Source: Ectocarpus siliculosus
Lineage: Eukaryota > Sar > Phaeophyceae > Ectocarpales > Ectocarpaceae
Reading direction: 5' to 3'
Assembly (NCBI GenBank): GCA_000310025.1
Contig: FN648568.1
Coordinates: forward strand, 109,190-150,307
DNA: 41,118 nt
A program made the position numbers and the translations under genes. The notes beneath the pieces are model-generated. The model saw only the letters and a list, made by a program, of their open reading frames with translations, was not told the origin of the DNA and did no database searches. Within the stretch, counting starts at the first letter, position 1. Every line of letters begins with the position of its first letter. This document shows positions 7,291-31,414 of the stretch, one piece after another.

Positions 7291-7293
7291 TGG

Positions 7294-8080: not shown

Positions 8081-8099
8081 AGGGAAATTGTGCCGCCAG

Positions 8100-10785: not shown

Positions 10786-13394
10786 GATTATGTCGCCTCG
10801 ATTCGGTCTACACTCACCCCCCAAGAATTCGCCTGATAATAGGGTTTATGGTAAGAACGGTTGTACTGTTTCCAGCCGGAATATTATCGATCTTGGATCT
10901 TGATGATTTGATTGGGTTAGGATCTTGCTGTGTAAGAATCAGTCTAACACTTTGCCGGATAGGTTTTTGGCTACATGCAGTTGGTCTTGATCATCGTTTG
11001 AAGCAACTTGATTGGATTAGGAAAACAGCCCGTGAAGTCATGTACAGACTCCTCTCTTTCCAAGGATCTTCAGAAATATTGCCCGTATTTCATATTTCAA
11101 ATATTTGTACGGCGGAAGGCATTTACTCGTCATCACCAACTGACTCTTAGAACGTCCTGAGAACAATTGGCCGGCCGTCGTGGAACGAACTGCCTATTTG
11201 ACCTTGATGTTACCCGCTTCCTTGTGTCCCTGCTGTGCTGATACACCACATTATAGCCCTGGGCAACACAAAAAAAACTGGTTGCAGGTCCTACGATGAA
11301 AGCCTCTGCGCACTGCTCGAGGGAGGCATGCGCCTAAGGCAACCAACTTTTCGTATCATCTGGCGGCATTTATCCCGTCCTCCGCCTGTCACGTCCCTGT
11401 TGACGTTCTCTCGTTTTCGTCACAGATTGTTTCGCCATCAATCGGAAGGAAATCCCTTGTTCCCGATCATTCAGCCCTTGCGGGCTGCCCGAATGTAAAA
11501 AGATAAGTTTGAAATGATGCCTAGACTACGTCGCTCGTGGTGATGATGTTGACTTGACTTGGGACAGGTGTCGAACGCCCACAGACAGCACGATTTCCGG
11601 CATGGTACGGATGCCGTGAAGGCGGCGAGAACGGCACGGTCGTTTGTTCTATGGCAGAACGATTGCAAGAACATCGTACGTCCTTCTCTGAAGAAGGTTG
11701 GGTACCCCGCTTCTCGACAAGGAATTTGCGGCTCAAGACGGTGCGCATGGTGGCTTGGAGATTCGGTAGGCCCGTGTCCATGTTTGAATGTATGCCTTCT
11801 CGGGCATCAGCGGTGATTCGTGTTCTCATGAACCCCCCTACACATGCACCTCAGAGAAACATTGTCTTACATCGTACAAATCGTGAAGTGGTTTCCAGGC
11901 ATTGGTACCGTACCCTTTGGACGCGTGGAACTATAGATTTTCCAGCTTGCTTGGTGTTGGTTGCCGTCCCCCGCAGTCTCTACCCCTGGTCTTGAACCGA
12001 CGAGAAAAGAGCCTCCTGGATCTCGAGTCGTGAGAAGAGTCGTTCAGCAGCTTATTCTTTCACACCTATTTGACGGCATGGGGAGCAGAATATAACTCAG
12101 ATGCAATTTAACGTTCCGACTCAAATATCAACAGTTGTCTCTAAGATGCTGACTTAACCCTGGAGCCATCGGAAAAACCAGGCCATTGCCTGCACGTCTA
12201 GCCAACACAACGTTCGTTTTAACTCTAACTCAATTGCAACAATGGAACATTCTCATGTGCAAGGACCCGACAATCTCGAGCGCGTGGTGGGCATTCGAAG
12301 GCCAACGCGAGTCACCTCGTGACGAAAGCAGCGTCAAGGGGCCCGGGTGGATCGACTGCAACGGATGTACGTGCCACACATGTTGGTAGACCGTTCGATC
12401 TAGAGCAGCTAACAGGGTGTAGAGACGGTCAAGATCTTTTGAGCTGCAGAAGTCAATGTTGTAGGATTTGCTTGAAGACCACCAGCTCGGTGGTTGCTGA
12501 CGTTGTCTCAGGAACCAACCAAAACTACTGTCTTCGGAACCGAGCAGATTACGCATTTGGTGGTGAGGTGCAAAGCGACAGTAAACATCACGGAAACATG
12601 CGAAGGGCCTCGGAGGACGAGGACGTTCCCAGGTGAAACCGTCTCGTCTTCTTATGTTTGCGTTCGTAGGTGCCATGAGAGGCAGCAGCGCTGGGTTTCC
12701 GGTTCCACGATTGGCTATAGATGCGCATGCATACAGTACAAGATATCATTCGAACGTCTTGAGGGCGGTGTCAACGTACATGTCTATTAGGCTGTATCGC
12801 ATCCACAAGCAGCAACAATGCAGGACGACTGTACTATGGCAATTGCGGTGTATATCCCAGCATATGGTAGCATACGATGGTACACAGGACAGCAGTAGTC
12901 CCGGCAGGACGGTGGTGATAGGATCCGAGGGATGGTAAGGATTGTGGAGATACCCAAACCGACCATTGTATCACAGCTAGAGATGACAACAATAAAGAAA
13001 AATATGTCCATACACGTTCGAGATATAGCCATAGTCGAACGGGATGTGTTGGAGTCTTTGTAGTGAGTGGAGGGAAACCGGCAGGGTGCTGGGCATCTGG
13101 GCATTTTTCGAGTCTATGCAGCCGCAGTATTTCCCCCGCATTTGTTACATTCCAACCGACATATATCACGCCGACTACATACTGAACATTGCATGAACGG
13201 AAAGAAACTAGGTATTTCCATAACAGACTGCGGAATATGAAGGTCAGCACCGCTGGTGCCATCGATGATATTTCACCTCTTCATTATGCACGACTTCATC
13301 ATCCGGCTTTCGGCCATGCTGTGAAAAACGGTATTATTATTTTTCCACAGCGCTTGATTCAACTAGAACATTTACACCGCTCAATTTTTTTTCA
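10786..13394. other. Stretch without recognisable gene
   Basis: Open frames reach 148 codons (12230-12676 minus), overlapped by plus-strand frames of similar length, and none shows a known motif. A 100-codon ATG frame lies at 10848-11150 just outside the foldback element. It contains a short direct repeat (TTGATTGG, one base, TTAGGA at about 10907 and 11010). I cannot support a gene here. Confidence 0.45.
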
Positions 13395-13600
13395 GCGAAA
13401 TGTACACGTTCAGTCACGCTAAACTTTTCATGATGAACAGCGGTGCACGTCGGCCGTACTTGTAGACCTGCCGCAAGCCAACGATGGGTGGCGCAGTAGC
13501 CCGCACGCATCCACCCCATTCACGCTTCTTTCACACAGGTAGGCCACAGCAACATATTTGGTTTTCCTGTGAAACACAAACACACACGTTCAATCACCCC
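13395..13600. repeat. Diverged dispersed repeat, related to 36668-36890
   Basis: Ordered matches to 36668-36890 include TTCAGTCACGC, ACTTGTAGACCTGCCG versus ACTTGTGGACCTACCG, GTAGCCCGCA and CACACGTTCAATCA. The spacing is broadly preserved but there are many substitutions and indels, so this is an old repeat. No protein or structural hallmark identifies its type. Confidence 0.4.
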
Positions 13601-14099
13601 CACCGTGGGAACTTCAATACATAGAACTTCGCCACGGCATACGAACGTCGAACGTGGCCACCTGCACACCAACAACCTAGAACTTGGCAACCAGCGCAAA
13701 CCTAGCACGTGTCAGGTAGGCTTGGGGTAAGGGTTACAGTGAACGTTAGGGTTATTAGCTTATATTGTGCCGGTTCCGAAGGAGACAATCTATTGTTCAG
13801 GAGTACACTGGTTCGGTTGAAGGGCGGCCGATGGGTGACCCATGGGTCGTTTCGGAAAACTGTAGAACGTGGCAGCACCGAATTTTGCGTTGTACGCGCG
13901 GTAATTTACTTTCCGCATGAAACGAGACAAAATCACCCTAGCAATAGTCTAGTGCGTTTCCCTCTCCATCACCACAAAAGCAGGAGGGGTTGCGGCAGCT
14001 GTCGTGCACCCGGAAATCTGCAAACAAAGTACACACCCGCCCTGGAAATTGATACGCTCACGGTTGTTCGAAATGCTTGCAGTGTGGACGATGGAACTC
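13601..14099. other. Stretch without recognisable gene
   Basis: A plus-strand frame of 143 codons beginning at a GTG (13709-14140) shows no known domain. A single GGGTTACAG/TTAGGG at about 13727-13755 is not a telomeric array. Nothing further was seen. Confidence 0.45.
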
Positions 14100-14285
14100 C
14101 ATGGAATCTCCGTGGTTGCAATTACATGGAAATTCCGTGAAGTAAAAAAAAACACAGCATGCAAACAAAAGAAAGCATGTAGGAAACAAGGCAAAAAAGC
14201 AAACAAAGACGATGCGGAAGAGGGACTCGAGCCAGACCCCGAGTGAAGGAAAACTACAGTCGACCACATGGGCTGCAGGTCGCCA
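14087..14285 (-). repeat. Possible tRNA-derived short repeat (SINE-like remnant)
   Basis: On the minus strand GGCTCGAGTCC (about 14228-14238) is one mismatch from the pol III B box GGTTCGANTCC. It is preceded by a tRNA-Glu-like stretch (GTTTTCCTTCACTCGGGGTCT). It is followed by a T-rich region and then by CACGGAATTTCCATGTA. The same order (B box-like, T-rich, CGGAATTTCGATGTA) occurs at 24313-24402 on the minus strand. No clean cloverleaf can be folded, so it is not a functional tRNA gene. Confidence 0.35.
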
Positions 14286-15314
14286 AAAAATTGGTGGGTG
14301 AGGGCGAATGCCTGCCTTTATATATGTAGCGCTCACGGATATTTTCCTTTGTAATCGTTCCGATAATTGCCCAAGCCAAAGTTATAAGGCGAAAAATCTG
14401 ATGATATTGTGTTTTTGTGGTTCCCACGGTTCTGATCATTTTGTGGTTCTCCCTCGCTTGGTTCTGTCGTCTCCACTCGGTCGAAAGACCACCAAATCGA
14501 TTCTAAGTGCTGTTTGGAGCCACTTGGATTTTCGGCGCCGCCACCAAAGCGCAACAAAAACACTATCTACCGCGAACATAAAAAGCTAGGAACGCGTATT
14601 GATCTTGTGATCATTTTGAGTATAATCCTAGCTTTTGTTTCAGTTCCTTAGTCACACAGGTAGGTTTCTTGTCATGGACAAGCCTGTTCCACTTGGTTCT
14701 AACCATGGCTTCGATGTTCACGATTGGAAGTTCGTTTGGGTGGGAAGGTTGATATCTACGTTGACTTTCTTCCTGCGCATAAGTGACCCGGCTTGATGAC
14801 TAGAAAAATACATGCGCTAGCAATCATACAGGAAGGCTTAAGACACGTATGTACCAAGTAGTACCTGACGCTGAACACCTCCCGCCCAGCCTCAAGAAAC
14901 CCACGGGAGATGGTGAAAAGATCTTTCCCCTCCCCGCCTTTTTTAACTCGGTGTACCCTTCACTTACCCCGAGTCTCAAAAGAAAGACGAAGAAGCGCCA
15001 AGCTCTACATTTCCCCATTAACTTACAGCCAGCAACATACGAATCCTCTGCCCCCCGCCCCGTCAAGTTCTCAAACAAACATCTCCTTTCATCTCTGAAC
15101 TGTGTTTTGATCAGCCTTGGTTGTACTTCCAGTGAGCACGAGCGAGACTATTCACCTGACACATTGAAGAATAGTATGCTACGAACTCCCAGACAAGTTT
15201 TTCCTTTGGGTTGTCGGTGCAGACAATACCGTCCCCACTTTCTTTCTTGAACTGCATTGATTTTCTTCACTCAACACAGGAAAATCTCACCGATGACCCC
15301 GTGTTTCAGGCCCA
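14286..15314. other. Stretch without recognisable gene; one small hairpin
   Basis: An 11-bp perfect inverted repeat, AAAAGCTAGGA at 14581-14591 and TCCTAGCTTTT at 14626-14636, could form a hairpin with a 34-base loop. The open frames (for example 14849-15250 plus, 133 codons) are Ser/Pro-rich and unrecognised. No host gene is supported. Confidence 0.45.
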
Positions 15315-15743
15315 ACATATCATGTTATCATGTTATATATATACTTACAGGATGGTCGTCGTGACGTGATACATTTCTTGTTATTAGTATGGAAATAAAT
15401 AAAAAAAAGATGGCTCGATTTTTCAATCTCTTCAGCAGTATGGACCAGATGCCGACTTTACATGGAAGTCGTACGAGTGTCGACTTGGTTGTGCTATCAC
15501 AGCATCTTCCACGCACTTCTGCCAGTGCTGGTTTGTTGATTGGAGTCTTGTAGGTCGAGATACAGCAGTGGGATTCTCGGGTTGTGGAGGCAAAAGTGAA
15601 CCAGAGCAAAAATGTCATGCATAGCTCGATTACTGCTGTGTTTTTGCTACAGCAGTATGGACTAGACGCCGAACGACGTCCGCGTGCTACAAGTACCGCA
15701 ACGACCTAACTGAATGGGATACTTCCTGCCACGGCGAACCATA
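15315..15743. repeat. Dispersed repeat family R, copy 1
   Basis: The stretch is homologous to 17028-17419 with high identity and to the fragment 36519-36660. Landmarks are ACATATCATG, CTTACAGGATGGTCGTCGTG, ACATTTCTTG, AGATGGCTCGATTTTT, CAGCAGTATGGACCAGA, GATTGGAGTCTTGTAGG, TTCTCGGGTTGTGGAGGCAAAAG, GTATGGACTAGACGCCGAACG and CTGAATGGGATACTTCCTGCC. Internally, CAGCAGTATGGAC recurs at about 15435 and 15651, hinting at a composite of monomers. No ORF is conserved between copies, so it appears non-coding. Confidence 0.85.
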
Positions 15744-15879
15744 GTACAATGCGATGCAAACATCCGTTCGTGTGTCGCGCGGCTGCCACATGTGTCGACG
15801 ACAGATACACGCAGAGCTCTCGCCATGTTGTCGTTACCGCGCAGGAGGACCCCTCGGAGATGTTCCACATGGTGCTACA

Positions 15880-16035
15880 ACGACAGCAGTACTACTGTAC
15901 ATAGATGTCGTAGGAGAGTGGAGTTGTGCTGTCACGGCATCTCCCACGCACTCTCCTACCGGTGCTTGTGTCGATTGGAGTCTTGTAGGCCGAAGTACTA
16001 GAGTGGGTTGGGCTCCCGGGTTGTGGAAGCAAACC
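15880..16035. repeat. Diverged extra monomer of repeat family R
   Basis: This region repeats the middle of copy 1 in the same orientation: GTTGTGCTGTCACGGCATCT, CCCACGCACT, GATTGGAGTCTTGTAGG, then CTCCCGGGTTGTGGAAGCAAA. It is more divergent from copy 1 than copy 2 is, so it represents an older duplication event. Confidence 0.65.
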
Positions 16036-16604
16036 TGCTTGCAACAACAGAGAAGGCGGTGTTCTATTTACTAGAGTATCCCGCTCAACTTTTTTTTTTT
16101 CGCGGCATGTGGTCGCATATATATTTCTTTGCCACTGCCGAAAAAGACCACTGGATCTTTACGCAGTACCAATACATCTTTTGCATTTATCATTTTACAC
16201 CGAACGACGCAGGACGGGTCGACCTTCATCGTTGTTGTTGTTATTTTTGTGTCTCCACATAAAAAACCGTTCCGACGTCCTCCTCAATACTTGTGGACTA
16301 CCTGTTGGAAATTGTGGGAATCCCTTCATGTCGAGAGAGAGAGCCATAGGTCGCCATCCGGCATTTTCTTTTTTTGTATGTATGCACTTTTCTTCTTGTG
16401 AAGTTTTGACGTTGCGCTTGCCATCGTCGCCGCGTAAGTGTTTGTTTGTGTCTTCAAACCTTCTCAGCCGGCCTACAAACTTCTTGTTGATAAGTCTCCG
16501 TGGTAACTTCTCCGCGCATGAGTCATATGCAGCTATGACCTGCGCTTTGACTTTCACGATGGGTATTTTACCTCCCCGTCTTGCGTTGGTGAGTACCTGC
16601 GATA

Positions 16605-17027
16605 TACAGAAGGATCGCTCCACGACGCAAACGTCGACGTCTCCGTTTTTTTTTTGTTCCCTTCACACGCCATCCTTGCCGCGGTTTTTACACCGAGTTC
16701 GAATTTCGAACATGGGGTACAATTTCCTCGCTTCGTACCTTCCTCGTCGGCCGTCTCCATCGATTTTTCGGCTTTTCGATTCCGATAGACAAAACTACAG
16801 ACTGACTTGTCCGTTTCACCCCCGACGGGACAGGGCGCTCGCTCGTCGAGTGCCGAAATTCTTCACCACTTCCTTGCTTCTCCGAACACCGCGTCCCTTC
16901 TTCCCGCCCCTACAAATCCTCTCCCCTTCTTCTCCTTCTTCCCTCCCTGCCGGACACTCACCACCATCGGTCCTGGATGTTGGCCCCCAGCCCCATTGGG
17001 GGGCGGGGGGCCAATCGTTGACCCTAG
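16605..17027 (+). mobile_element. Helitron-like non-autonomous element, copy B
   Basis: This is the full-length counterpart of 3189-3614 (423 bp). It ends with the hairpin at 16980-17014 (TTGGCCCCC...GGGGGCCAA), a 9-base spacer and CTAG at 17024-17027 followed by T. The sequence immediately after, TATATATACTCACAGG, is the start of repeat family R, whose copies at 15315 and 36519 carry an extra upstream ACATATCATG block missing here. The junction therefore marks an insertion precisely at the CTAG/T end, the known Helitron target behaviour. A 315-codon plus frame across it (16109-17056) is considered spurious. Confidence 0.65.
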
Positions 17028-17419
17028 TATATATACTCACAGGATGGTCGTCGTGACGTGATACATTTCTTGCTGTTAGTATGGGGAAAACAAAAAAAAG
17101 ATGGCTCGATTTTTGTATTTCTACAGCAGTATGGACCAGACGCCGACTGTACATGGATATCGTACGAGTGTCAACTTAGTATTTCTTCCACGCACTTTTG
17201 CCAGTGCTGGTTTGTTGATTGGAGTCTTGTAGGTCGAGATACAGCAGTGGGGATTCTCGGGTTGTGGAGGCAAAAGTGAGTCAGAGCACAAAATTTCATG
17301 CATAGCATGATTACTTCTGTGTTTTTGCAACAACAGTATGGACTAGACGCCGAACGACGTCCGTGTACTACCGCAACGACCTAACTGAATGGGATACTTC
17401 CTGCCACGGGGAACCATAT
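17028..17419. repeat. Dispersed repeat family R, copy 2, truncated at its 5' side
   Basis: The copy matches copy 1 at 15345-15743 almost throughout, with small deletions (the sequence around 17185 lacks a block present in copy 1). Its 5' flank is replaced by the Helitron-like end. Together with copy 1 it brackets 15744-17027, but the bracketing repeats lack TG...CA ends and primer-binding or polypurine sites, so they do not look like LTRs. Confidence 0.8.
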
Positions 17420-18896
17420 ATATATATTGTATCCCACATTTAGTGATGCCGATGCCATGCGATGCCGCAGGAAAGTATTGGTTGGATGATGTTCAAAACA
17501 GCATGCCAGGTTATTGCCAAAGCGAATCGATCCCTCGTATGGCCTGCTTGTCTCTTGTCGCCCGCGGCAGCACGCGACGCCACTTACCAGCTCTCCGTCT
17601 TTTTATTTTTCTCCAAAGCGCCGCACAAGTAGCTGAGAAGCAATTTGCCGTTGGGTAATTTTTCTTGTGTGCATTTGTAGACTACCCGACCACATTCCAA
17701 AAAAAACACTTTTTCAACTTCTCTGGTTTGCGGTGTTGAGTGTGAGAGTGTGCCCGACTATGAGGAGTGTTTCCATGGGCGGCAAGTGTTTCAAGCGGCG
17801 GGAGGGGGAGGGGGGGTGTACTCTGGTTCGTTCGCCATCCGCACGCTTCCAAGCATGGATTCCCCATTGCTTCAGTTGTACCTTATTGGCACTTGCCTCA
17901 AGTATATGGCAAGGGATGGCAAGCTGTACACGCGTACTCCCTCATTCACTGCACAAAATGTACACCCGAGGAATTCACCAACATCGAGACATGAAAGCAT
18001 AATGCACGTTCCCAACTGGTATACCCAGTCAAGAGAAAAGCAAGGAAGTTCATTTAACGCACCACTCACCAGTTGAAAAGGAAGCAACCAACTCGCACAA
18101 AGAAAAACACGAACCCCCGAAGGAGTTCATGCCATCTCCGGGGTACGTCGTTCTTCGGTAAGCGTGGCCGCGTCAGAAAGGATGAGTTCGCGGTAGACTT
18201 TCAGCTCATTCTACCACCTGGCTGTTTCCGAAAACATTTGAACGTGCACGGCGAGCGTCAACGAGAATGTCCCAAGTTGTTTGTTCCTCCTATTTATCTG
18301 AACGATTGTACTGGAACACGGGCGTATCGGTGAGGTTTAGGCCCCCTTGGGCGTAGCAGACTGCAACAAAATTGTCAACATACCAGACAATAAGTTGCAC
18401 CGGGCTTCACACAATCCCGCTCATGCCCCCCCACCCCCCTTCCGCCCTACAGTACTCGTGTAGGGTGGGGAGCCTGAGGTTTCAGGGGAACGGCGTAATT
18501 TCATACGAAGCGTATTTCCTGCACTCGGTAGTACGTATCCACAGTCGCGACTATCGACAGCGCACTGGGGCTTCACAATCTACACGTCTTATTGTGATGC
18601 GGGCGAGGGTTCAAGCTGGCAAGACACGCACGGACATTCCGTAAGCATGGCCCTTCGCACAGTGGTTATGAGGGTCGACTGAGTACGAGCCCCGGCAGAC
18701 GGCCCTTAGTTGTGCTTTATTTGTATTGCCGGCATTTCGTGGTACACATGTGCACCAGACACTCACCTCATGCTTGATATGAGGTGCATCACAGCCCAAA
18801 AAAACAACGACCCCGGGGCGTTTCGACCCCTCCACCGCTGTGTGCAACCCAGCCCCGGGCTGTGTGTTTTATTGAAGCCCCGATCCCCCCCGCGGG
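17420..18896. other. Stretch without recognisable gene
   Basis: Several plus-strand frames of 75-111 codons overlap between 17667 and 18333, some protein-like (for example near 18140-18250), but no chain of phase-compatible exons or family motif emerged. A C-rich run sits at about 18426-18440. Confidence 0.4.
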
Positions 18897-19120
18897 TCAA
18901 TGACAGAGGTAACTACAGTCAGCGTACCTTGTTGACGTTACCCTGGAGCACCCGTCGTGGGTATTGGTGACAGACAGGGAGATACGACCAAGACCACGCA
19001 ATCCGGAGGCCTTCATACGCTCGCTTGCATCCACGAATATGATGAGCGTGCCTATGGTGGGATTGCGATTCGCTCCCATGGCTTCGATGCAGGCATCATA
19101 CTGGTCCAATTCCGGGTCCG
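18897..19120 (-). CDS. Candidate terminal exon of an unknown protein
   Basis: On the minus strand a pyrimidine-containing acceptor (CGTTTACTATCTGCAG) is followed from 19120 by an open frame beginning DPELDQYDACIEAMG. It continues with TIGTLIIFVDASERMK and stops at 18897-18899. The sequence is protein-like and the frame stays open through the acceptor, but I do not recognise a family and found no upstream exon between here and the transposon at 19502. It could be a fragment of a gene interrupted or displaced by transposition. Confidence 0.25.
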
Positions 19121-19499
19121 CTGCAGATAGTAAACGTGTGTTCGGGCACGAAGTGCAGGGGGATATCTTTCACCGACAGAATAAATGTATGCTTAGGTCC
19201 GGGTTTAACCTATTTAATACATAAGCTAGCGCCCCGGCCCCTCGCGGGGGGGGTCGGTGAGGGTTACCCGCCCCCGTCTATGCTCCTGTTCTTTAACGCA
19301 GCGTACGGCGGACTGCCTCAACGTAAAAAGCAAAGGGGCCCTTTGAGGAGGGGTGGGGGTCCCCCAGCGCTCGTGATGTCGACCCAAACCTACAATGTGT
19401 TGCACTGTTGCTTGAAAGCAATTCGGCAATCAACGGCAAAGTATCAAGCAGTGGTGAAGGACATTTCGTACACAATGTGTGTGCATGAACGTAATGAAA

Positions 19500-19501
19500 T
19501 A
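19500..19501. repeat. TA target-site duplication, left
   Basis: The dinucleotide TA immediately precedes the left TIR and is matched by TA at 23179-23180 immediately after the right TIR. TA duplication is the fixed target signature of the Tc1/mariner/pogo superfamily. Confidence 0.85.
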
Positions 19502-19528
19502 CAGTGGGGGGCCCTCTATAGTGCCGGT
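19502..19528 (+). repeat. Left terminal inverted repeat of pogo-like element
   Basis: The repeat starts CAGTGGGGGG and ends CCCTCTATAGTGCCGGT. It matches the reverse complement of 23152-23178 with a single mismatch at base 6. Confidence 0.95.
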
Positions 19529-19676
19529 TGAATAGTGCCAACTGCCGGTATAGTGCCGGTAAAATCTCTCCACACAGAAAGCGCCCTCAATAGTGCCAAA
19601 CGGCACTATTGAGGGCGGGCCTGGTATAGTGCCGGTTGGGCACCACGTCAGCCCGCAATAGTGCCGGTTCACACAC
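19518..19676. promoter_or_regulatory. Left subterminal TAGTGCC array with 16-bp palindrome
   Basis: Between the TIR and the transposase start, TAGTGCC occurs six times in direct orientation, mostly as TATAGTGCCGGT or AATAGTGCC, plus one inverted copy. The inverted copy belongs to a perfect palindrome: CGCCCTCAATAGTGCC (19582-19597), loop AAAC, and its complement to 19617. Repeated subterminal motifs are typically transposase-binding sites in DNA transposons; that role is inferred here. The array also sits where the transposase promoter should be, so binding could feed back on transcription. Confidence 0.6.
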
Positions 19677-19757
19677 GCACGCACACACACCACCACACTC
19701 CCAAAATACAGACACCGTGCTGCTGCAGTCCAACACAGCTCTACGCAGAGGCGCACC

Positions 19758-22643
19758 ATGCCGTGTGCGGAAGGTGAACTGTGCCTTCAACAGAACAGAA
19801 CGCCGAAGGCCCCTCATGGCCACGTCTGCAAGGGAGGATGTGGCGGGCGGCTCCATGGCACTTGCGGCAGCGTGGAGGGTGACTTCGAAACATCCCGCAC
19901 CTGCAGTTCTTGCGTCGCTGCTAAGACTGGCAAGCGCAAAGCGACCGCAGCTGGGGTTGATGCTGGGGCGGGACCATCTAAACGTCCGACAGAGAAAGGG
20001 GGGGGGAAGAAGGCTTCTCGCGCGCGGCTGAGCAACGCTGACAAGGTTGAGGTCCTCAAGCTGCTGGATGCCAAGATTTCTCATGAGCAGATAGCAGATC
20101 GCTTTAAGTGCTCGGAACGGCTGGTCCGCAAGGTGAAAGCTGAACGGAAGGAAGTGGAGGCTAAGGCAGCTGCAGGCGACGGAAGCCAGAAAACCGCACG
20201 CAGAGGAGACTTTCCGGAGGTAGGAAGAGTACACGACATGCCTGGCAATTTCCTCTCGAACGTTGTTTTTCCCCGCCATTTTTCAAAAATGCCCTCATGT
20301 CGCCGATTTCTACTGCTGTACCTTTTTTTTTTTTGCCCTTCCTTGTTTCTTTGCCTTTCCCTTTTCGTCTTTTCGTATGTATCATATGGTGTTTTTTTTT
20401 TTCATGTCACCTCCTTTTTTTCTTTCTCTTTGCCTTTTTTTGTTATGTCTTTGGCCTTTGAGGTCCTCGATGTCCACACTCATAGACCTTCCGATTATTT
20501 GTCCTTGAAAATGAAAGAGCACTGTTGTGTACATATTCGCACCCGCTTTTTTTTCAAAACAAACAAGCAGATGTAAGCAGATGTAAGCAGATGTAGCCTG
20601 TACGAGCGTCTCCTCGCAACTTTCCCTTTCCCCTCCCGCAATTTTTTCTTTCCGGGTGTAGTGGCACTTAAACAACATCAGCTTTGTTTACGGTGTACCG
20701 CGGCGTCGTCCCTCGTATCTGCGCCGCGCAGTGTAGATGCTTACGTTTGAAACTAATCGTTGGTCGTTTGAACCTCTGCATTGTATACTCTTTTTCGCCG
20801 GCAGGTGGATGAGATAGTTATTGATCTGCTCGATAAAGCCCGGAAGGCCAAGATGCCCGTCACACGGGACGTACTTCGAAGCTTCGGCCGTTCCACCGTG
20901 GCAACCCTGCTCGCTGAGCCCGCTACTTCTGCAGCAGTGAGGGCGAGGGTCGAGGACTTCAAGGCCGGTGAAAAGTGGGCCAAGAACTTCGTGAAGCGCA
21001 ACAAGGTGCTGAGTGCGAGACTTCATGGCGAGGCTGGTAGTGTCGACCCAGCGGCCATCGAGAAGGGCATGGAGGAAGTCAGGAGCCTTTGCGCGAAGTA
21101 CCCAGCTAGGTTCATCTTCAACGTGGACGAGACAGGCATCCAGTGGAAGGTTATGCCCAGGCGCACGTGTCTTTCCTCCTCGGACGACCGCAAGAAGGCG
21201 CGGGGCTCCAAGAGCATGTACTTCAAGGATCGGATGTCTGCCATCATGTGCAGCAACGCCGACGGCACTGCAAAGGTGGACATGACCATCATCGGGAGGT
21301 CGAAGGTGCCTCGCTGCTTCACGGACGCGCTTTCACCTCTGAAGTACTTCTCGCAGGCCAACGCGTGGTCTGACTCCGCGACGTTCCTCAAGTGGTGGCT
21401 TGAAGTCTTCCTCCCGTTCATTCGGCGCTTCACTCACGAAAAGGTGCTGCACCTGATGGACGGCTGCTCCTCTCACGGCGATCTCGTTGATGATCGTGGG
21501 CAAGTTACCATCAAGTTCTATCCTCCGAACTGCACCAGCCTGCACCAGCCCATGGACATGGGGATCATCGCGAAGACGAAGGTCCTCTACAGGAAGGAGC
21601 TGCTCGACGTGAAGGCATCCACAATGTTGGTCGCTGAGACCCTTCGCGCCCAGGCCAAATCCAGTAAGATGAAGGCCGGGACGATGGGGCTGGCGCAGGG
21701 GCACCAACCTCACCTACGGGACGCCGCTGAACTTCTTCAGAAAGCATGGGGCAGCGTCACTCCCCAGGACATCGCCAGGTCAGGTTTGAACATGTTCTGT
21801 TGCTATGTAGATGCTTCAACTCGGGCGGTGGTGCTAGCACAATAGCTTTGGTGGCACGTTTCGTGGCAGAGGTGGTACGGATTTTTTTGAGAAAGTTTCC
21901 TGCAGGGGCATCCCTCGTTTGCAATAAAAATTTCCTCTTTTTTTGCATGCGGATGAGTCAACTTCTGCCGCTGGGTCCGTCTAATATCTGCGTTGCACTC
22001 AAAAACGGATGCGGTTCGTATTCTCGGCAACCCCGCGACCAGGTGCTTTGTCAAAGCCGACACGCTTCCGCAGGAGATGGCGGCTGAGCTCACCAACCTC
22101 CACGGGAAAACCCAGGCCCGCATCCACGAGCCTGCGTTGAGGTCCCTCACGAAGAGTGTCCACTCGTTGAGCACGAGCGTGCACGACGCGCAGCAGCAGG
22201 GGTCTCGCATCGAAGACGAGGACCTGAGTGAAATGTTCGCAGAACTCAACGTCTCACCCGGAGAGCCTGCCCCGGAGGAGGCGGTGGACTTAGTTCAGGC
22301 GTGGGCTACCATCGAGGATGACGATGACGTGGTGGAGGCTTTTCGACAGGATGCAGCGGACGAAATGACGGCACAGCTAGCGGGAACGCGCCTATCTACC
22401 TGCCGCGAGGAGGAATCCGAAGATGAGGCAGACGGTGATCATGAGGACACCGGGGGCGGCCGCCGCGCCCCACCGGCTTACGGTGAACTGTCTTCTCACT
22501 TCGGCGTCCTGGAGGTGGCCGCGCGGGAGAGTGGAAACGGGGACGCTGCGTTCCACCTATCGAAAGCGAAGATGGCGATGATCGCGGCGCATGCCGCTAA
22601 GGGCGTGCGCCAGACAGACATGAGAGAGTTTGTTGATGAGTGA
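19758..22643 (+). CDS. Pogo/Tigger-like transposase (three exons, 678 aa)
   Basis: The predicted exons are 19758-20219, 20805-21778 and 22043-22643; introns of 585 and 264 bp start GT and end AG, and all phases agree. Residues 22-52 form a Cys/His cluster (C24, C28, H33, C36, C49, C52), a likely zinc-binding module. About 88-140 is a CENP-B/psq-type helix-turn-helix (KISHEQIADRFKCSERLVRKV) for DNA binding. About 180-245 matches the second CENP-B-like DNA-binding part (KWAKNFVKRN). The DDE_1 catalytic core follows with D262 (FNVDETG), D373 (LMDGCSSH) and D405 (LHQPMDMG), a DD31D arrangement. The C-terminal exon is acidic (EDEDLSEMF, IEDDDDVVE), as in Tigger proteins. The join TPQDIAR/CFVKAD across intron 2 restores the conserved post-catalytic stretch. 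The enzyme should cut and paste the surrounding element at TA sites in the nucleus. Retaining intron 2 would stop at 21845 and remove the tail. Intron 1 is T-rich and contains a short tandem ATGTAAGCAG near 20571. Confidence 0.88.
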
Positions 22644-23022
22644 GGGGGGGACAGCTATACCGCAGTTTTTTCTTTTTGTTTTGTTTTATTTTTGTCCGCT
22701 TCGTTGCTGGCGCGTTTATTGGTTTTGTTGGCGTGTCTCATCACGCAACATCGTAGGGAGGCAGCGAGGAACGTGATATTTTTTCAAGTATACTAAGTTG
22801 CACGGACGGGAGCTGTACACGGGGTTTGGCTCCGAAGGTGAATTCTGCGCGTGCATGCGGGAATGATTTCGCGGCAAACTCAGCTATCAGAGTGGAACCC
22901 ACATTTGTCTCAGAAAAGGCTGCCCCTGCCGCCCACAAAGTATATTCACCACACTCGATCCACATGCTACTCTGTTGGCCTCGCAAATGGTAAGCGATAC
23001 ACCATGAACTCAAACAGCAGTG

Positions 23023-23160
23023 CCTCAGTAGTGCCAGACCGGCACTACTGAGGGATATCGATCATCCGAATAGTGCCGTTTGGCACTATTGAGGCACTAT
23101 TCCCAGTTGTGCCGGTGCCCGCTATAGTGCCGGTGAACGCCCTGCGCACGTACCGGCACT
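23023..23160. promoter_or_regulatory. Right subterminal TAGTGCC array with two hairpins
   Basis: The right end mirrors the left. A 13-bp stem CCTCAGTAGTGCC (23023-23035) pairs with 23041-23053 across a 5-base loop. AATAGTGCC (23069-23077) pairs with GGCACTATT (23082-23090) across GTTT. Further inverted and direct TAGTGCC copies lie at about 23093, 23123 and 23155. These are probably transposase-binding and end-synapsis sites (inference). Confidence 0.6.
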
Positions 23161-23178
23161 ATAGAGGGCCCCACACTG
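23152..23178 (-). repeat. Right terminal inverted repeat of pogo-like element
   Basis: The sequence starts ACCGGCACTATAGAGGG and ends CACTG. It is the inverse of 19502-19528 with one mismatch and is followed by the TA duplication at 23179-23180. Confidence 0.95.
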
Positions 23179-23194
23179 TAGTGGTACAACCGAA

Positions 23195-23196
<2 letters not shown>

Positions 23197-23229
<33 letters not shown>
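23197..23229. repeat. (TC)n microsatellite, 33 bp
   Basis: An uninterrupted run of TC dinucleotides begins 16 bp beyond the right TA duplication of the transposon. It is host sequence flanking the insertion. Confidence 0.95.
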
Positions 23230-23233
<4 letters not shown>

Positions 23234-24290
23234 GCATGCACGCTGTCTCTCTTGCGTTCGTTTTTGTAGGATGCACGAAACCCTGCGTATCTGCGTATTC
23301 CACAATATCAGGCGGGGGGGTAGTACACCTTGGGGTGCAAATTGCAGTTCGTCTTACCCTGGGCGGGTTTGCGTCGAAGATCAAAGATTCCAAGGTGGTG
23401 CAAACAAGTCATGCTCGACATAGTCACCAGGCACACGACTTTGATTTGCCTAGGTTGCATGTGAAAACAAGGTTTTCAGCAAGTCTCTAGAAAAATCTAC
23501 TTGGAGTGATTACGTTCACGGGGCAGGTCGGTCGAGATTGCCCGCTATCAACATGTACATGCAACGTAAGCTCAACGCACGGCGGGGAGGTGGGGGTAGT
23601 GGAGAATTCCAAAAGATGAAAAAAAAAGGAATTCTCACACGGCGGAGCAGGTGGAGTCGGCAGAAACGTAAAAGCCGTGGGCTCAACCTGCATGGGTACG
23701 TCCATCTGCCAACGGGAGACACGACGAAGAGTGGGGATATTGAAGTAGACTTATCATCGGCTGGTTTTCCGTAGGCGTTTAAGTAACAGTCGGCCCCGCG
23801 GGGGATATATAGATTATTCGGGAACCCTGAACCCTTCCCTTACGTCGGGAAATCATGCTATATATACAAGGGCTCCGGACTTCCGGCGCAGAGGCGCCCT
23901 CGTCCTCAGTAGTAGGCTTAAACGGAAGTTGTGAAGGCCGCGCACAGCATACCGAGGGCATGAAGCCGCAGGGTGATCGAATGAAGGGTGTGAAGATGTT
24001 CGCGTTGTATTTGAGAAATGTGCCGTTCCCGGTGTAACATGAAGCCAAAAGAGTCGCGTGTACGTGAATTTTGTCTAGGTTTGCCCGGTGCGAACGAAAA
24101 AGAGATGAAGAAGACGCACATGCAGATCCCTTCGCTCTACTATGCATACTTCTGGTGACCTCTTCGTTTCGCATCAGCGGCGCGGCATGGGGGGACCCGC
24201 TGCGACCGCCTTTTCTCAGTTGTTGTTGTTGTTGTTGTCTTGACATCGAAAGAAAAAACCTTCCCGATCTCTGACACGTCATTTTTCTGT
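23230..24290. other. Stretch without recognisable gene
   Basis: The longest frame is a 257-codon minus frame (23779-24552) that runs into the tRNA-like repeats and includes homopolymeric stretches from a GTT run at about 24221-24238. It has no domain and is probably chance. Nothing else is supported. Confidence 0.45.
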
Positions 24291-24292
24291 AT

Positions 24293-24465
24293 TTTACGGC
24301 CAAAAATGTTTCCAAAGCGGTACATCGAAATTCCGAAGGAAAAAGAAAGAGAAAAAAAAGGGTGGTGGGAAGAAAAAATGTGGCGCAGAGGAGAATCGAA
24401 TCCACTGATCTCACAGCGCAGCAGTTGGTTGCATAACATACCACGCCCCCTGGACCAACTTCCAA
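24293..24465 (-). repeat. tRNA-like SINE remnant with A and B box
   Basis: On the minus strand TGGTCCAGGGGG (24446-24457) fits the pol III A-box pattern TRGYNNARNNGG. GATTCGATTCT (24392-24402) is a near B box about 55 bases downstream. A T-rich body and CGGAATTTCGATGTA follow, as in the 14.1-14.3 kb repeat. The acceptor stem cannot be paired convincingly, so this is a tRNA-derived repeat rather than a tRNA gene. Confidence 0.45.
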
Positions 24466-24612
24466 AGCCTGATTATTCCACACCAGAAGGAGTGGCGAGG
24501 CCGGAATTTGCTGCATTGGAACTGTCTCGTCGAGAGCTTTTCGAAAAAGCATCGTTTGATTTTCGGATCGTTTGATTTTCGGAATTGTCTTCGTCGTAGA
24601 ACATGATAGGGT

Positions 24613-24655
24613 GAAACTTGGTCAAGGGGGTGTGGTATATTGTGCAACTGACGGT
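24613..24655 (+). repeat. Inverted partner copy of the tRNA-like head
   Basis: GAAACTTGGTCAAGGGGGTGTGGTAT and the following TTGTGCAAC match, in opposite orientation, the sequence at 24424-24462 (roughly 33 of 40 bases). The A-box pattern is retained at 24619-24630, but no B box follows. The two heads therefore face each other across about 150 bp, either as two insertions or as one inverted duplication. Confidence 0.5.
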
Positions 24656-25690
24656 TACCGTCAATTCCTGCTTTGAAGACGATATATTTTGCATGCGTGT
24701 GAACGACCTGTGTTAATCGAACAACCCATGTAAAACAATCGGGTGTTATTAGCGCTGGGCGTTGGTTGAAGCATGTGGATGGTCGACGCGGTCGATGCTA
24801 TGCATGTGTGTGGACAGGTCAGATACAGCAGAAATGCGGAGTTGTGACTGTACGTTGCTACTGCTGTTGAAGAAAACGAGCGCCCCCCGAAAAACAAATG
24901 AACCATTGAAAATGACGAAGTCTCCGAAAAGCTTTTTTATGAGGCAGGGTGCTTATCGACGCCTCCGGGATAATCCCCGCTCTGTATATGGCGAGGAAGA
25001 GCCGCATACACGCAGTAGACCGCGAGCCGTTGGGTGTGCAGGACCAACTGCTGGTGTCTGAGCGCACATGCATCTACAGCACGGGGAGACTTCGCGCCCT
25101 TCCTAACGGGAACGTATGCATAGAGATACACAACTACACAAACACACAATATTCCCTCAATTCATCTTTCTATTGCTGTGCCCCCGAGTCCGAGCATTTA
25201 GAGATAGCATAGCTGTTTGCCTTGGTTACGGAAAGAATGACACCAGCTTGGTCGCTATTCGTCGTGGCATGCTGCGGCCTCTGGTCGGCTGCGTCAAGGC
25301 CTCCTACTGTAGCTCGTCACACGGGGGCGATGCAGGGCCAAACAAAGCCATGCAAATGCAATAGGGGCTCGATGGTTCGGATGCCCCCCACCCCCTCTTC
25401 CCATCTGTCTGGTGGGATCTGTAACGGGATCTGATCTGATGGGAGCTTGTTGTACCCTGCACGATGTAGCTGGTACGCACATAGCACTCGTGAATCTCCG
25501 CACACACTCACACAAAGGCCCAAATTGAAAGGTATATTCGTTCATTAGTACGCATTGTGCCAACGTATCCTGGGCTCTTATATCTTCATATCTGTGTTGG
25601 AGACGTTGCGTTTTGTCCAGCCGGAAAAAAAAGAAATTCTAGTACACTAAGGCCAGTTAACCCGGACCGTCGAACCGACACAATCTACAG
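24656..25690. other. Stretch without recognisable gene
   Basis: There are only short overlapping frames (up to 99 codons at 24762-25061) without identifiable motifs. I see no repeat or RNA gene. Confidence 0.45.
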
Positions 25691-25691
25691 T

Positions 25692-25980
25692 CAGGAGGTC
25701 TGGCCTTCGGTTGTGACTGCCTCCCAACCTGTATCATCGGTGCTTTCACAACCAGGAGGTTTGGCCTAAGGTTGTGGCTGCCCCCCAACCTGTGTGATCG
25801 GTGCTTGCACAACTAAGTGGTATGGCCAACGTTGTGGCTGCCTCCCAACCTGGCTGTGTGACCGGTTCTTGCACAACCAAGAGGTGTGGCCTAACGTTGT
25901 GGCTGACTCCCAACCTCCCGCATCCGTCCTTGTACAACCAAGCCGTTTGGCCAAGGTTGGGGCCTCCTCCCAACACCCCT
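25692..25980. repeat. Five-copy minisatellite, about 61-bp unit
   Basis: Units start at about 25692, 25753, 25813, 25878 and 25939 (spacings 61, 60, 65, 61). The core reads CAGGAGGTTTGGCCTAAG, GTTGTGGCTGCC, CCCAACCTG, TGTGATCGGTGCTTGCACAA. Later units diverge progressively toward the 3' end. Units are contiguous with no unique spacers, so this is not CRISPR-like. Frames on both strands are open across it because the repeat is stop-poor. Confidence 0.85.
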
Positions 25981-26020
25981 CTAAACTTACCCCTACCTTC
26001 TGGGTGCCCACAACCCACCC

Positions 26021-26299
26021 ACAACCTGCCCTCTGGCCATCCGTGCACGTGGGACCCTGCACAAAAGGCTATCCCACGATCGCTGTTGCTTGAGACCTAT
26101 ATCTTCGCGGGGAGTCCGCACAGACGCCGGAGTTGATATTGAAGGCATGACACGAGCATGCGAGCATCAGACCATAAAAAAATCCCCGACTTGCCACACA
26201 TCCTGCGAGTAGCAACATACAGCTTCTTCACATACTATGTGCTTGCTAGCTTCGTTCAAGATTGAGATCGCATACAACCTGCCCTCGGGCCACCCATGC
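26021..26299. repeat. Short direct repeat pair around ACAACCTGCCCTC
   Basis: ACAACCTGCCCTCTGGCCAT at about 26021 recurs as ACAACCTGCCCTCGGGCCAC at about 26274, followed by CCGTGC or CCATGC. The first copy directly follows the minisatellite. Origin is unknown. Confidence 0.55.
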
Positions 26300-27570
26300 T
26301 GGTACAACGGCGCCAGAATAGATGGGAAGAACAGACAGATACGTAGCTTTCGCCGCCATACCCTACGAGATCTATATATCTCCGGAATTGTGGTACCGAA
26401 ACCTTCGCAGTCCGTACGCGTCTTGCGCGTTTGGAAGCTTGCCGTGTAAGCTTCCGCTCTCATCTCGGTACGACATCATCAATCTGCGCCATTGTCGTAC
26501 CGTTGTTGCCACCCGCAAGCGTCTTCCACATTTATTTGTAAAACTCGCCATTACACCACATGCTTCGACGTTTGTGTGTTGCTTGCTGTCTTCTACGCGT
26601 ACCTCGGGTGTAGTCTTCAAACAAGGGCCTTCAAACAAAGTATCATGTTCGTGGAAGTTTATCTTTTTCCAGCAAAACAACAATTACAGTACGGCTTCAA
26701 TCCTCTCCTTTCAAAACTCAACCCGCATACACTTGCCATCGCCATGCAACCTACGAGCGCAGCGGCGACCCCCGATAGCGGTCGCCCGCGAAGCGGCGTT
26801 GTATTCTACTACAACTACTGCTGTTCCTTTAGTACCTCGTGGTTTATCGTAGCAAGCCGGAATCGGCGGCGAGGGTAGACCGAACAAACCCAATGCCGAC
26901 CAACGATCAACGCACTACACGTGCAAATGTACATACGTAGAAAGGTCATATCTTGCGCACGCTGCACATTCAAGCTCGTTACATTGCTTCCACTTTGCTG
27001 TACGGGAGGTGCTTGCCGTTCCGAAGATGGTCGCTTTGTTCAGCGGCGGCGGCAGGCGGCAAGCGGCAAGCGGCAGTCTATTTTACGTATGCGTTGTAGC
27101 ACGGCGGTACCATCAGCAGCAGCAGGTACATGCGGCACAAGCAAGCACCTAGCAGATGGCCGAGGAAGAAGTTCGCTTGCTTCCTTCCCCTCCACCCCTC
27201 CAAGAATCCAAAGAGACCCCATTGCGGTCGTCCTTCTACGTGTGACTGTTGTGCGCAACATGCAATGCACGCTGTGTGTGTGCTACAGCGGTACTGTCAT
27301 CATGCGTTGGCCAATGAGAATAAGGCCCCCAAACCGCATAAAAATGCTGATGGATCTATATAGACGGCGTTGCCAGTTGAGTGCACCAGGTCACGCTGTG
27401 CCGCTGCTGCTGGTGCTGTTGCGAGTAAGGTTAGGGCTATACAGTTTACACCCATCACGGGACATACGCGACAGAATCAACCAGGGTGCGGGCTGTCAAG
27501 TCCTACCCGTTATTCATGCGGGTTGACATTTTCCACGAGAGTCCACCCTCGACATGAAGCTTTGGAATTT
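26300..27570. other. Stretch without recognisable gene
   Basis: Plus frames of 176 codons (26322-26852) and 201 codons (26921-27526) are present, but both lack recognisable domains, overlap other open frames and have Arg/Cys-rich composition. No splice chain supports them. Confidence 0.4.
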
Positions 27571-27574
27571 TTGC

Positions 27575-27796
27575 CATGGAAACCACGGAAACGTTCCATG
27601 GAGGGCCATGGAACTTGCCCTGGAAATCTCCGTGGAAATGCCATGGAATATTTCACGGAGTCCATGGAGTCCATGGGCCTCCATGGAGTAATCCACAGAG
27701 CCCCATGGAATTCCATGGAGCTCCATAAGGTGCTATGTAACGTTTCATGAAACTCCATGGAACTCAACCATATTCCATGGAGTTCCATGGAATTGA
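27575..27796. repeat. CCATGG-dense palindromic tract
   Basis: About twelve CCATGG palindromes fall within roughly 220 bp, embedded in variants of TTCCATGGAGT, TTCCATGGAAT and CTCCATGGAAC. Near-matches such as CCGTGG, CACGGA and CCTGGAA also occur. There is no fixed period, so this is not a classical minisatellite; nested inverted repeats could form many alternative hairpins. A single similar cluster (GGAACTCCATGGAATCTCC) lies at 14094-14112. The overlapping frames read Met/Glu/His-rich and are considered accidental. Confidence 0.8.
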
Positions 27797-28356
27797 TAAA
27801 TCATGTGGACGATTGGCTGAGACACATTTATGCCTGGCAGTGTGGCCACAGCTCTGATTGAAATTCTGGCCACGACCATTTCCAAAAATCGTTTTTTTTT
27901 TCAAAGCGTCTTTAACGCGAGGAACATGTCTTTAAAATTCCGGGGACGATAACCTACCATGCCCGGGGTCAATGGAGTTGTACCATACGTCAAATGACGC
28001 CCCGTTGCAGCAGGGATACATAGCACGAAACGAGAACACCGTACACTTGGCGATCACATCGTGGCAGTGGGTGAAATCCGGATGTCCTATATAACCGAGT
28101 TTGAAGTACTTAATATTTAGCAGTCACAGCGTGGTCTCTATGCGTTGTTGAAAACCTTGCCGACAGCTTTGTCACACCGAACCAGCCCGCTGTTCCAACT
28201 TAAGCACGGAACACGTGCTATGCCACGCGCTACCTACCCGACAGGGACAAAACGACGAACATTAACCAGAAATTATCGGTAAAAGACAGACAGCACTAGA
28301 AACAAAAACAAGACAAACTTGAAAGAAGAAAGAGATTTCATCACTTTACGCTTGAC
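27797..28356. other. Stretch without recognisable gene
   Basis: No open frame of 60 codons or more is found on either strand and no repeat was noticed, apart from a T-run at about 27891-27901. Confidence 0.55.
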
Positions 28357-28965
28357 TTAAGTTTCATGGATATACGAATGCACAGCCCTCGCAAGAAGGT
28401 CTAGTGCTTCGCTGTACTTCCCGTCCTTCCCCTTCGCGTTCAAGAAGGAGCGGCAGTCCTCGAGACGAGAGCGGACGTCGGCCTCTCTCTGTAAGCGACA
28501 TTGTCATGCACGACCCTGGCCTACCGTCGCCGTCTTCCTATGCACTGGACACATCGTCATTGAGGTCTATGTTGTCAAGGTCCTCCTTTACACCCGGCAG
28601 CTTTACTTCTATCTCTTCCTCCAACACCTCTGGGGCATCCTCTACACGAAGCTACGTCTTCACTACCTCACGGACTTGAACCTCAGTGAGGCCTGCGGGC
28701 TTCTCGACGAACAAGTTGTCCGTCAACACTCGCGCCATAGACCTAAAGTCCATGACGCTGGCTGGCATAGACATCTCCGCGACCATGTCGCAGAGGTTGT
28801 CGACTTCATCGTGCACGTTGGTTCACCACGTACTGTCAAGCCGGCGGTGGACGAGCCGCCGGCAGACGAGAAGAATCTCTCCATACCAACACCAAGTAGT
28901 AGCGCCAGCAGCAGCAGACAGCTTTCTGTGCTGTCTACACGGGCGTGCTGGTGTGCTGCATCACG
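28357..28965 (-). pseudogene. Eroded unknown ORF with three substitution-type stops
   Basis: Read on the minus strand from about 28965, one frame gives a convincing protein-like sequence (LVCRRLVHRRLDSTW, then TNVHDEVDNLCDMVAEMSM, FRSMARVLTDNLFVEKPAGL, VREVVKT, LRVEDAPEVLEEEIEVKLPG). It is broken by TGA at 28823-28825, TAG at 28652-28654 and TAG at 28538-28540. A frameshift follows, and the end (DVRSRLEDCRSFLNAKGKDG ... YIHET) stops at 28357-28359. Each stop is one transition away from Trp or Gln. It lies just downstream of, and parallel to, the LINE remnant but does not look like RT. I do not recognise the family; it may come from another mobile element or a dead host gene. Confidence 0.5.
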
Positions 28966-29130
28966 AGTTTTGGGGGGGCGCGCTGTAAAAATACCCCCCC
29001 CCTATGTTATATGTCTGCGGGGCACCCTGGTTCAGATTTGTTTCCGTCTTCATCGCGGGGAGTTGACTTAGAGCGAGCGTCTTTACAGCGGGGATGACTG
29101 CAAATATATTTTGGACCAAGAAAACAACGC

Positions 29131-29230
29131 GCGTGGTGAACCCAGCCCTGTGGTGGTGGACCAAGTATACCTCGCGTTGGTGAGGGGGGGTTTACCCCTC
29201 CCGGCACTGTGGTGGTGGACCAAGCCAACT
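29131..29230. repeat. Short repeats of GTGGTGGTGGACCAAG in the LINE 3' flank
   Basis: CTGTGGTGGTGGACCAAG occurs at about 29149 and 29208, with related GGACCAAG at 29112, each followed by similar sequence (TATACCTCGCG, CCAACTAC). On the minus strand this lies just after the C-terminal coding remains of the LINE, so it may be its 3' untranslated repeat. Confidence 0.5.
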
Positions 29231-29234
29231 ACTG

Positions 29235-31060
29235 CTACACCCCTGCTGCTGTTGGTGCACGAGTTTGTATCTCACAGCTGTCCGTGTGCGTCTCACGTTG
29301 TGTGCCCTGCACCTGTCTTCATCCTCGTCGATGTGTAATCCCTTCCATACGTCCTGTACAACCTTGACTCATGCCGTGGGTTGTCTACCCCTCTTTTTTT
29401 TCGCCCACTTCGCCTCCCACACTATTCTCGGCAACCTCTCTTGTCCCGTCCCGCATATACGATACTGCCATGTCAGCTTCCTTGCGTCTCTTTCCCACCG
29501 TAGGGATTGGATCCCCAATTCTGCCCTGAGAGCTGCACTACTTGTGCGCTTGGAGCATCCTAGAATGATTTTCGCTGCTTGCATCTGCGCCGCCTCGATT
29601 TCTTTCACTACCTTCTCATTTCCTTCCCGTACTTCTCCGGCGTACTCTAGCGGCGGTATGATTACGCTCTTCAAAACCGTCAAGTTGGTGCGTGTATCGA
29701 CGTGCCGGTTTGCGAGTATTGAGTGCAGTTTCCCTGCTCGTGCTTTGCTCTTTTCCGCTACCTTGGACATGTGTGCATTCCACGAGCAGTCGTTTGCGAT
29801 CTCTACTCCGAGGTATGTGTACTGGTCCACTACCACAATCTCCTCGATCCCCCACTTCCGTCTATGTTCTACTGTTTCCTCCCTGACTTCGTAGCATACC
29901 ATGACGGCACTCTTATTAACGTTGGCAGACAATCTCCACATATCAATTTGTAGTTGCATGCAGTTCCTCAGGGGTGTTTGACATACCAACAAAATCATCC
30001 GCGAACAGCATTCCTGACACCGAAGTTTCCGTGTCCCCTACTTCTACCCCCTTTCGGACTGCCTCTACGACTTCCAACTGATCGTTGATGAACACCTAAA
30101 CCAAAGTTGGGGACAGCCTGCAACCTTGTGGGACCCCCTGCCCAACGTCGAAGAATTTTGACAGTTCTCCTTCTAGCACGACCGCGCTTTTCGTACACTT
30201 TGCCATCTTCTTCGGCGCTCTCCACTTTTCCCCCTTGATCCGGTACGTGGACAAGTGTATCCATAGCCCATTTCTCCATATGGTGTCGTATGCCTTTTTC
30301 ACGTCCAGGAAAAGGGAGTAGGTCGGCTTGCCCGCCCTCTTCCTACCTTGGATAATCCTCCCTACCGTGAATGCGTGGGCTACGCACCCCCCCTTCTGTC
30401 GGAAACCTGCCTGGCCCTCACTAATGCTACGTTCCTTCTCCAATACTCCCACTATTCTATTGTTCAGCAGGTTACAAAACACCCCTGTGTTCAACAGTGT
30501 GATATCCCTGGAGTTTCCTGGGTCAGTCTTGTTTCCTTTCTTAAACAAGTTCACAACCACTCCTTCCCTCCATTTACTTGGCTCATACTTATTTTTCCAC
30601 ACCCAGTTGGATCATCCCCTTCCCCCCAAACTTCATGAACTCGTTGTTGACTATCCCATCCGCCCCTGCTGCTGCTTTGTGGCACTGCAGCTTGTTCACA
30701 CACGCCTCAACCTCGTCCGAGGTAAACTCCTTTTCTAGTTCTACGTTCCTAACGTCTGCCTTCGATATCTGTTCTTCTTTCTGGGCCCATGCGTCCACCT
30801 CCTTCTGAAACACTTGGTTAAAAGATTCATTCTCCGAAGGAACTTCAAGTTTTTTGTGGTGTCCTGCTAGACCTTCCCTTTTTCCATCCCCACTGGTGAC
30901 TAGTCCACCGTTCACACCTTGCAAAGTTGCTACCCCTGAGTTGTTGAACTCTGTCCTCGTCCTGTCCCTTGGAATCCCAAACAGCGACAGCTCCAACATG
31001 TCTCCCTTCCACAGTTTCAGCTTCCATCCTCCCGGCTTCTTCGCCATCCTCATGATCTCT
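29235..31060 (-). pseudogene. LINE (non-LTR retrotransposon) reverse transcriptase, broken
   Basis: The minus strand carries an ordered non-LTR RT in several frames. About 31053-30612 covers the pre-fingers region (KLQCHKAAAGADGIVNNEF). A frameshift leads to 30602-30099: WREGVVVNLFKKGNKTDPGN, GQAGFRQKGGC, FLDVKKAYD and GVPQGCRLSPTL. An in-frame TAG at 30096-30098 follows, then VFINDQLE and the catalytic FADD box at 29995-30006. A second frameshift leads to 29970-29369 with the thumb and C-terminal part (VVDQYTYLGVEI, EYAGEV, AAKIILGCS). A TGA near 29367 is followed by a still-readable end (VVQDVWKGLHIDEDED) to about 29235. In the family, this enzyme primes cDNA synthesis on nicked target DNA. 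At least two frameshifts and two stops make the copy dead. Endonuclease motifs were not recognised; the 5' side is at or beyond 31.1-31.3 kb. Confidence 0.8.
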
Positions 31061-31098
31061 ACAGAAACTGGACCGTGGCCACTTGTTTTCGTGATTTT

Positions 31099-31399: not shown

Positions 31400-31414
31400 A
31401 GCCTAAGATCCTAC

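Follow-up and report, generated by a model that had tools for sequence, protein, structure and literature searches.

A decaying pogo-type transposon of a recently mobile family, with a probable excision footprint at a second version of its locus in Ectocarpus

How much do an open transposase frame and near-perfect ends reveal about the age and activity of a single transposon? The question is raised by a TA-flanked element of 3,681 bp (positions 19500–23180, both TA copies included) in the 41,118-bp stretch of Ectocarpus DNA analysed here (the window), which was originally predicted, from its sequence alone, to be an intact, possibly active and recently moved pogo/Tigger-like transposon. The TA duplication and the 27-bp terminal inverted repeats (TIRs) with one mismatch were both re-read in the window sequence, and the TIRs are identical at 26 of 27 positions (Table 1). 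According to the excerpted text of PMC7386202, most families of the pogo superfamily have TIRs of no more than 40 bp, total lengths of 1.2–5.2 kb and a catalytic spacing printed as DD29-59D; the TIRs, the length and the DD31D spacing of the window element fall within these ranges. TA, the target of the superfamily, is present on both sides of 27 of 28 copies compared (L017 has CA on its left) and stands singly at outgroup empty sites. The predicted pogo-type identity is thus borne out, as TA, TIRs, DDE_1 domain and DD31D all agree, and by these sequence features the 3.68-kb element is a member of the pogo superfamily within the IS630-Tc1-mariner group. It is nested in an older repeat (18999–19499 and 23181–23680) with relatives on contigs C3, C11, C189, C230, C200 and C10, and in ten other open reading frames of the window no Pfam family was matched at E of 0.01 or below.

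Table 1. Features of the transposon in the window (positions in the 41,118-bp stretch).
Feature	Position	Strand	Remarks
Left target-site duplication, TA	19500..19501	.	Outgroup empty relatives have a single TA
Left terminal inverted repeat, 27 bp	19502..19528	+	
Left subterminal array	19519..19666	.	7 sites with at most 1 mismatch from TAGTGCCG, 6 direct and 1 inverted
Transposase exon 1	19758..20219	+	Conserved Cys/His-rich N-terminus, then helix-turn-helix (residues 93–128)
Intron 1 (GT-AG)	20220..20804	+	Position kept in sister subfamily
Transposase exon 2	20805..21778	+	Tc5-type helix-turn-helix (below cut-off) and DDE_1 catalytic domain
Catalytic D262 codon	21126..21128	+	
Y276C codon	21168..21170	+	Private change of window copy
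L370H codon	21450..21452	+	Private change of window copy, in predicted strand before D373
Catalytic D373 codon	21459..21461	+	
Catalytic D405 codon	21555..21557	+	
Intron 2 (GT-AG)	21779..22042	+	Position kept in sister subfamily
Transposase exon 3	22043..22643	+	C-terminal part and stop codon; without Pfam match
Right subterminal array	23029..23161	.	8 sites with at most 1 mismatch from TAGTGCCG, 4 direct and 4 inverted
Right terminal inverted repeat, 27 bp	23152..23178	-	Private mismatch at 23173
Right target-site duplication, TA	23179..23180	.	

The transposase was predicted to be encoded by three exons that join, at 20219/20805 and 21778/22043, into a protein of 678 aa with three catalytic aspartates. 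D262, D373 and D405 are all present, with 31 residues between D373 and D405. Several alternative GT-AG combinations likewise leave the frame open, so that an open frame alone is no proof of the chosen joins. These do, however, match boundaries conserved in a sister subfamily (six copies aligned, 77–80% identity over the central part): coding similarity breaks off and restarts at both joins, and at the splice sites of the six copies 23 of 24 dinucleotides, counted by eye, are GT or AG, the exception being the first donor of L036 (CT). Other joins were dropped, as a single set agrees with the conserved boundaries, and comparison of the subfamilies therefore favours the three predicted exons.

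Exon 2 matches Pfam DDE_1 (6.5e-27), and below the cut-off the window copy matches HTH_Tnp_Tc5 (0.0016), HTH_23 (0.00015) and CENP-B_N (0.091); three relatives show HTH_Tnp_Tc5, two of them above the cut-off (L043 and L044) and one below (L041). In the predicted structure the helices at residues 93–128 have a pLDDT of about 90. Exon 2 was modelled by AlphaFold2 with modest confidence (pLDDT 63.7). The best PDB neighbours of this model, with E of 6e-4 to 4e-3 and low TM-scores (0.30–0.37 by query length, first 12 rows), are Mos1, Sleeping Beauty and SETMAR, which all belong to the IS630-Tc1-mariner group. No credible relative of either exon 2 or exon 1 emerged from sequence searches of the PDB, and a search of IMG/VR gave none of exon 2. 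The N-terminus contains seven Cys and three His residues that are conserved in sister copy L035; this region has no accepted Pfam family, and exon 1 has no Pfam match to EsV_1_7 at E up to 1.

A search of the host assembly (189.5 Mb, 492 contigs) reveals both full-length and deleted relatives: ten near-full-length copies including that of the window, the other nine at 98.7–99.3% identity, together with many deleted copies and the sister subfamily. The left end is found at 97% or more in at least 32 places, one of them partial (best 40 of 285 candidates scored), and the right end in at least 31 (best 40 of 202). The 28 copies compared are the window copy, the nine other near-full-length copies and 18 deleted ones; these counts exclude copies on C21 (L029/L030) and C368 (L031, at a contig end) and two copies of L010. 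No two of the 28 have 200-bp flanks that resemble each other, although the two flanks of L009 are like one another. The transposase frame is intact in six of the ten near-full-length copies (window, L001, L002, L004, L005 and L006).

Deleted copies fall into groups that retain 1–172 and 1597–3681 (four copies), 1–1609 and 2941–3681 (three copies), or 1–1071 and 2927–3681 (seven copies), and as their transposase is incomplete they presumably moved in trans. L019 matches L020 without a difference over 2,340 bp, as L022 does L024 over 1,805 bp, each pair at unrelated sites, which argues for recent movement of the family. The deleted groups are not all young: L013 differs from others of its group by 18–22 substitutions, and L016 from L017 by 16. 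At least four non-autonomous relatives (L054–L057, on C33, C26, C2 and C27) are 1.05–1.87 kb long, have TA-CAGT ends and align to both ends of the element at 69–84%.

On C455, two copies with intact frames (298058–301740 and 332085–335758) share an orientation and are separated by about 30 kb, possibly reflecting local hopping, and on C2 (L010) a head-to-head pair is broken by a run of N. A deleted copy on C21 is split, with its ends in L029 and L030, by an insert of ~9.9 kb (770787–780710) that has TTAA flanks and CCCTTTCGTGAC / GTCACGTAAGGG ends; it looks like a piggyBac-type element.

Empty relatives are found for at least five of 15 copies tested (window, L001, L002, L008 and L013), a lower bound because the batch searches (best 40 of 4,378 and best 40 of 1,846 candidates scored) were swamped by repeats. 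Those of L001, L002 and L013 contain a single TA (two relatives aligned per copy), and the flanks of L008 contain four bases (TATA) more than its two aligned empty relatives. The full-length and deleted copies, together with the empty TA sites, uphold recent mobility at the level of the family. The joined flanks of the window copy span the junction at six places, C397 (95%), C230 (91%), C3 and C11 (87% each), and C189 and C200 (81% each); the C230 match stops 25 bp past the junction, and the junction sequence was read at C397, C3, C11, C189 and C230.

Contig C397 (16,108 bp) is a second version of the locus. It is collinear end to end with window 6079–25805 and has no element, and it differs further in having 482 bp extra near its position 3546 and in the absence of window 17447–17824. 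The two versions differ by 92 substitutions in 12,022 aligned columns (0.77%, three stretches) and by 47 mismatches in 3,560 columns of a fourth stretch (6079–9609), by arithmetic about 0.89% overall. C173 picks up at the end of C397: over its first 1,200 bases it is identical to window 25518–26717, the two contig ends overlap at 99.3% over 288 bp, and C173 matches window 25900–33900 at 99%. C441 is a further version of window 31873–33900, so that the transposon locus is present in two versions and its neighbourhood in up to three. C397 is likelier to be the other haplotype than a recent segmental duplicate; it might be the latter, in that the assembly contains more than two versions of part of the region, as C173 and C441 show, and what follows about its junction holds for either. 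The assembled versions also differ beside the transposon site in the length of a (CT)n tract and in small indels.

The insertion point reads AATGAAATGTAGTGG in C397, AATGAAATAGTGG in C3, C189 and C230, and AATAAAATAGTGG in C11; C397 thus has a TG beside the TA where these four outgroup repeats have TA alone, and the element itself ends in TG before its right TA. Elements of the Tc1/mariner group leave a few bases behind on excision. For Passer, of the pogo superfamily, footprints of 0–4 bp are given in the excerpted text of PMC9976928. The TG in C397 is most likely a footprint left when the element was excised, although only one such case was found and a random indel of 2 bp may account for it instead. 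In that event C397 would never have held the element, being a pre-insertion allele or duplicate. The two versions do differ by eight other indels of up to 4 bp in the 12,022 columns, but at this density the chance of an indel at the three slots of the TA is about 0.2% by arithmetic, and a chance indel must also have matched the terminal dinucleotide of the element at a site where the four outgroup repeats are plain. The scar is not of simple form: a simple footprint would keep both TA copies, and one is gone here. The divergence of the window copy leaves room for an insertion about as old as the split of the two versions: the private divergence of the window copy (0.43%, an upper bound on insertion age) is close to half of the divergence between the two versions (0.38%, or 0.45% with the fourth stretch), and the insertion may therefore be old enough to have been present on both. 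We consider a chance indel in a version that never held the element to be unlikely.

The same divergence bears on whether the window copy itself is intact, active and recently moved, as its open 678-aa frame, catalytic triad, TA duplication and near-perfect TIRs had suggested. It has 16 private substitutions, as against none in L004, one each in L001, L002 and L006, and two in L005, the five other copies with intact frames; L003 has eight, L007 16, L009 18 and L008 19, these counts concealing changes common to close sisters (L001 with L002, and L004 with L005 and L006). The nearest copy is 23 differences away from the window copy, 21 from L007, 22 from L009, 25 from L008 and 12 from L003, and one to five from the remaining five. 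Nine of the private coding changes of the window copy are missense and two are silent, which fits drift. Residue 370, three residues before D373 in a modelled strand that ends beside it, is Leu in 16 of the 17 readable rows of an 18-sequence alignment (rows not all independent), the window copy alone having His; in a separate comparison L003 has Ile. Residue 276 is Cys in the window copy but Tyr in L041–L046, sister L035 and three other aligned copies (Gly and Leu in the distant L050 and L053). The DDE_1 score of the window copy is 96.3 bits, compared with 103.1–103.9 in the other five with intact frames, and its right-TIR mismatch is also private. With missense changes at conserved residues including L370H and Y276C, the transposase of the window copy is probably impaired, though its ends are probably still usable in trans.

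Recent movement of this particular copy, predicted from its frame and TIRs, is not supported, and an intact and active window copy is a decidedly improbable reading. Judged by its sequence, the window copy was inserted longer ago, and its transposase frame, though still open, is decaying, in a family that has itself been recently mobile. The window frame compared with L035 gives an overall dN/dS of 0.40 (0.32 for exon 2 by itself), suggesting past selection on the protein; this comparison uses a single sister copy, the only one of six with an unbroken frame (L033, L034, L036 and L037 have broken frames and L032 a run of N). Purifying selection between subfamilies could also point to a domesticated host gene with incidental ends, a notion of practically no remaining probability and already refuted by the many copies with TIRs and TA at unrelated sites and by the broken frames of four of the ten near-full-length copies.

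Both ends of the element contain arrays of short sites resembling TAGTGCCG. With at most one mismatch there are seven in the left 180 bp and eight in the right 180 bp, but two in the 3.3 kb between; nine of the 15 array sites are exactly TAGTGCCG and four are TAGTGCCA, and in 500 shuffles the sites numbered 0.5 on average and five at most. As judged by eye, site positions are kept in the ends of L033, L034, L036 and L040, and sites are kept in the right end of L038, where the outermost bases differ. The arrays are probably binding sites for the transposase. The spliced 678-aa protein would bind these sites, cut at the CAGT/TA boundary and insert the element at another TA; the family would have spread as full copies and, in trans, as deleted ones; and the element would have been excised from the other assembled version of the locus with TG left behind. 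We hold it to be highly probable, taking these points as one account, that the window contains a pogo element of a recently mobile family, itself older and decaying, that was excised on the other version.

Ends of the En/Spm type have many short sites in both orientations near the termini. They are array-like as in the window element, but the En/Spm transposase is unrelated and its target duplication differs in length. The window element may represent a pogo-group transposon with En/Spm-like ends, each end having seven or eight putative transposase sites, in both orientations, to which a helix-turn-helix module related to that of the array-binding CENP-B presumably binds, and with its locus forming a natural occupied and excised pair; this fuller reading is tentative, possible rather than probable. 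If it is true, the pair would show that a DNA transposon has actually been excised in a brown-algal genome, and the end arrays make the recognition site of a pogo-type transposase directly testable. A literature search gave no paper joining pogo, Tigger and subterminal repeats, although some titles touch on subterminal transposase binding in pogo or Tc1-mariner elements, and none of the titles listed in the searches dealt with a pogo element of brown algae or with the movement of one.

The closest known system is the pogo superfamily of PMC7386202, putatively its Tigger/pogoR type by described features; a Cys/His-rich N-terminus and subterminal arrays of 15 sites are unmentioned in the excerpted text on pogo. 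Passer is likewise a cut-and-paste element of the pogo superfamily (PMC9976928, excerpt) but is almost all DD35D (PMC7386202, excerpt), whereas the window element is DD31D. TcMar-2_Ec32 of Ectocarpus, as described in the excerpt of PMC12477816, is also an autonomous Mariner-Tc1-type element that has non-autonomous relatives and carries an additional domain at its N-terminus, in its case possibly a zinc finger; it differs in being 4.4 kb long with an EsV-1-7 domain, while the window element is 3.68 kb and its exon 1 lacks an EsV_1_7 match. The Ectocarpus library that includes TcMar-2_Ec32 contains 17 Mariner-Tc1 families (PMC12477816, excerpt), compared here by description. The window element belongs to a known kind and may match one of the families in that library, and the most useful part of the locus is its pairing of occupied and apparently excised versions.

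Two further gene sets are found in the host genome. A second, distant set of DDE_1 genes (on C340, C94, C17, C33 and others) has a longer insert between the catalytic strands, and some of its frames are open (341–569 aa). EsV_1_7 cysteine-rich repeats are greatly expanded, with at least 150 over the cut-off (best 150 of 880 candidates scored), an expansion that points to a brown alga as the probable host. The excerpted text of PMC12477816 supports a link of EsV-1-7 with brown algae and names giant viruses too.
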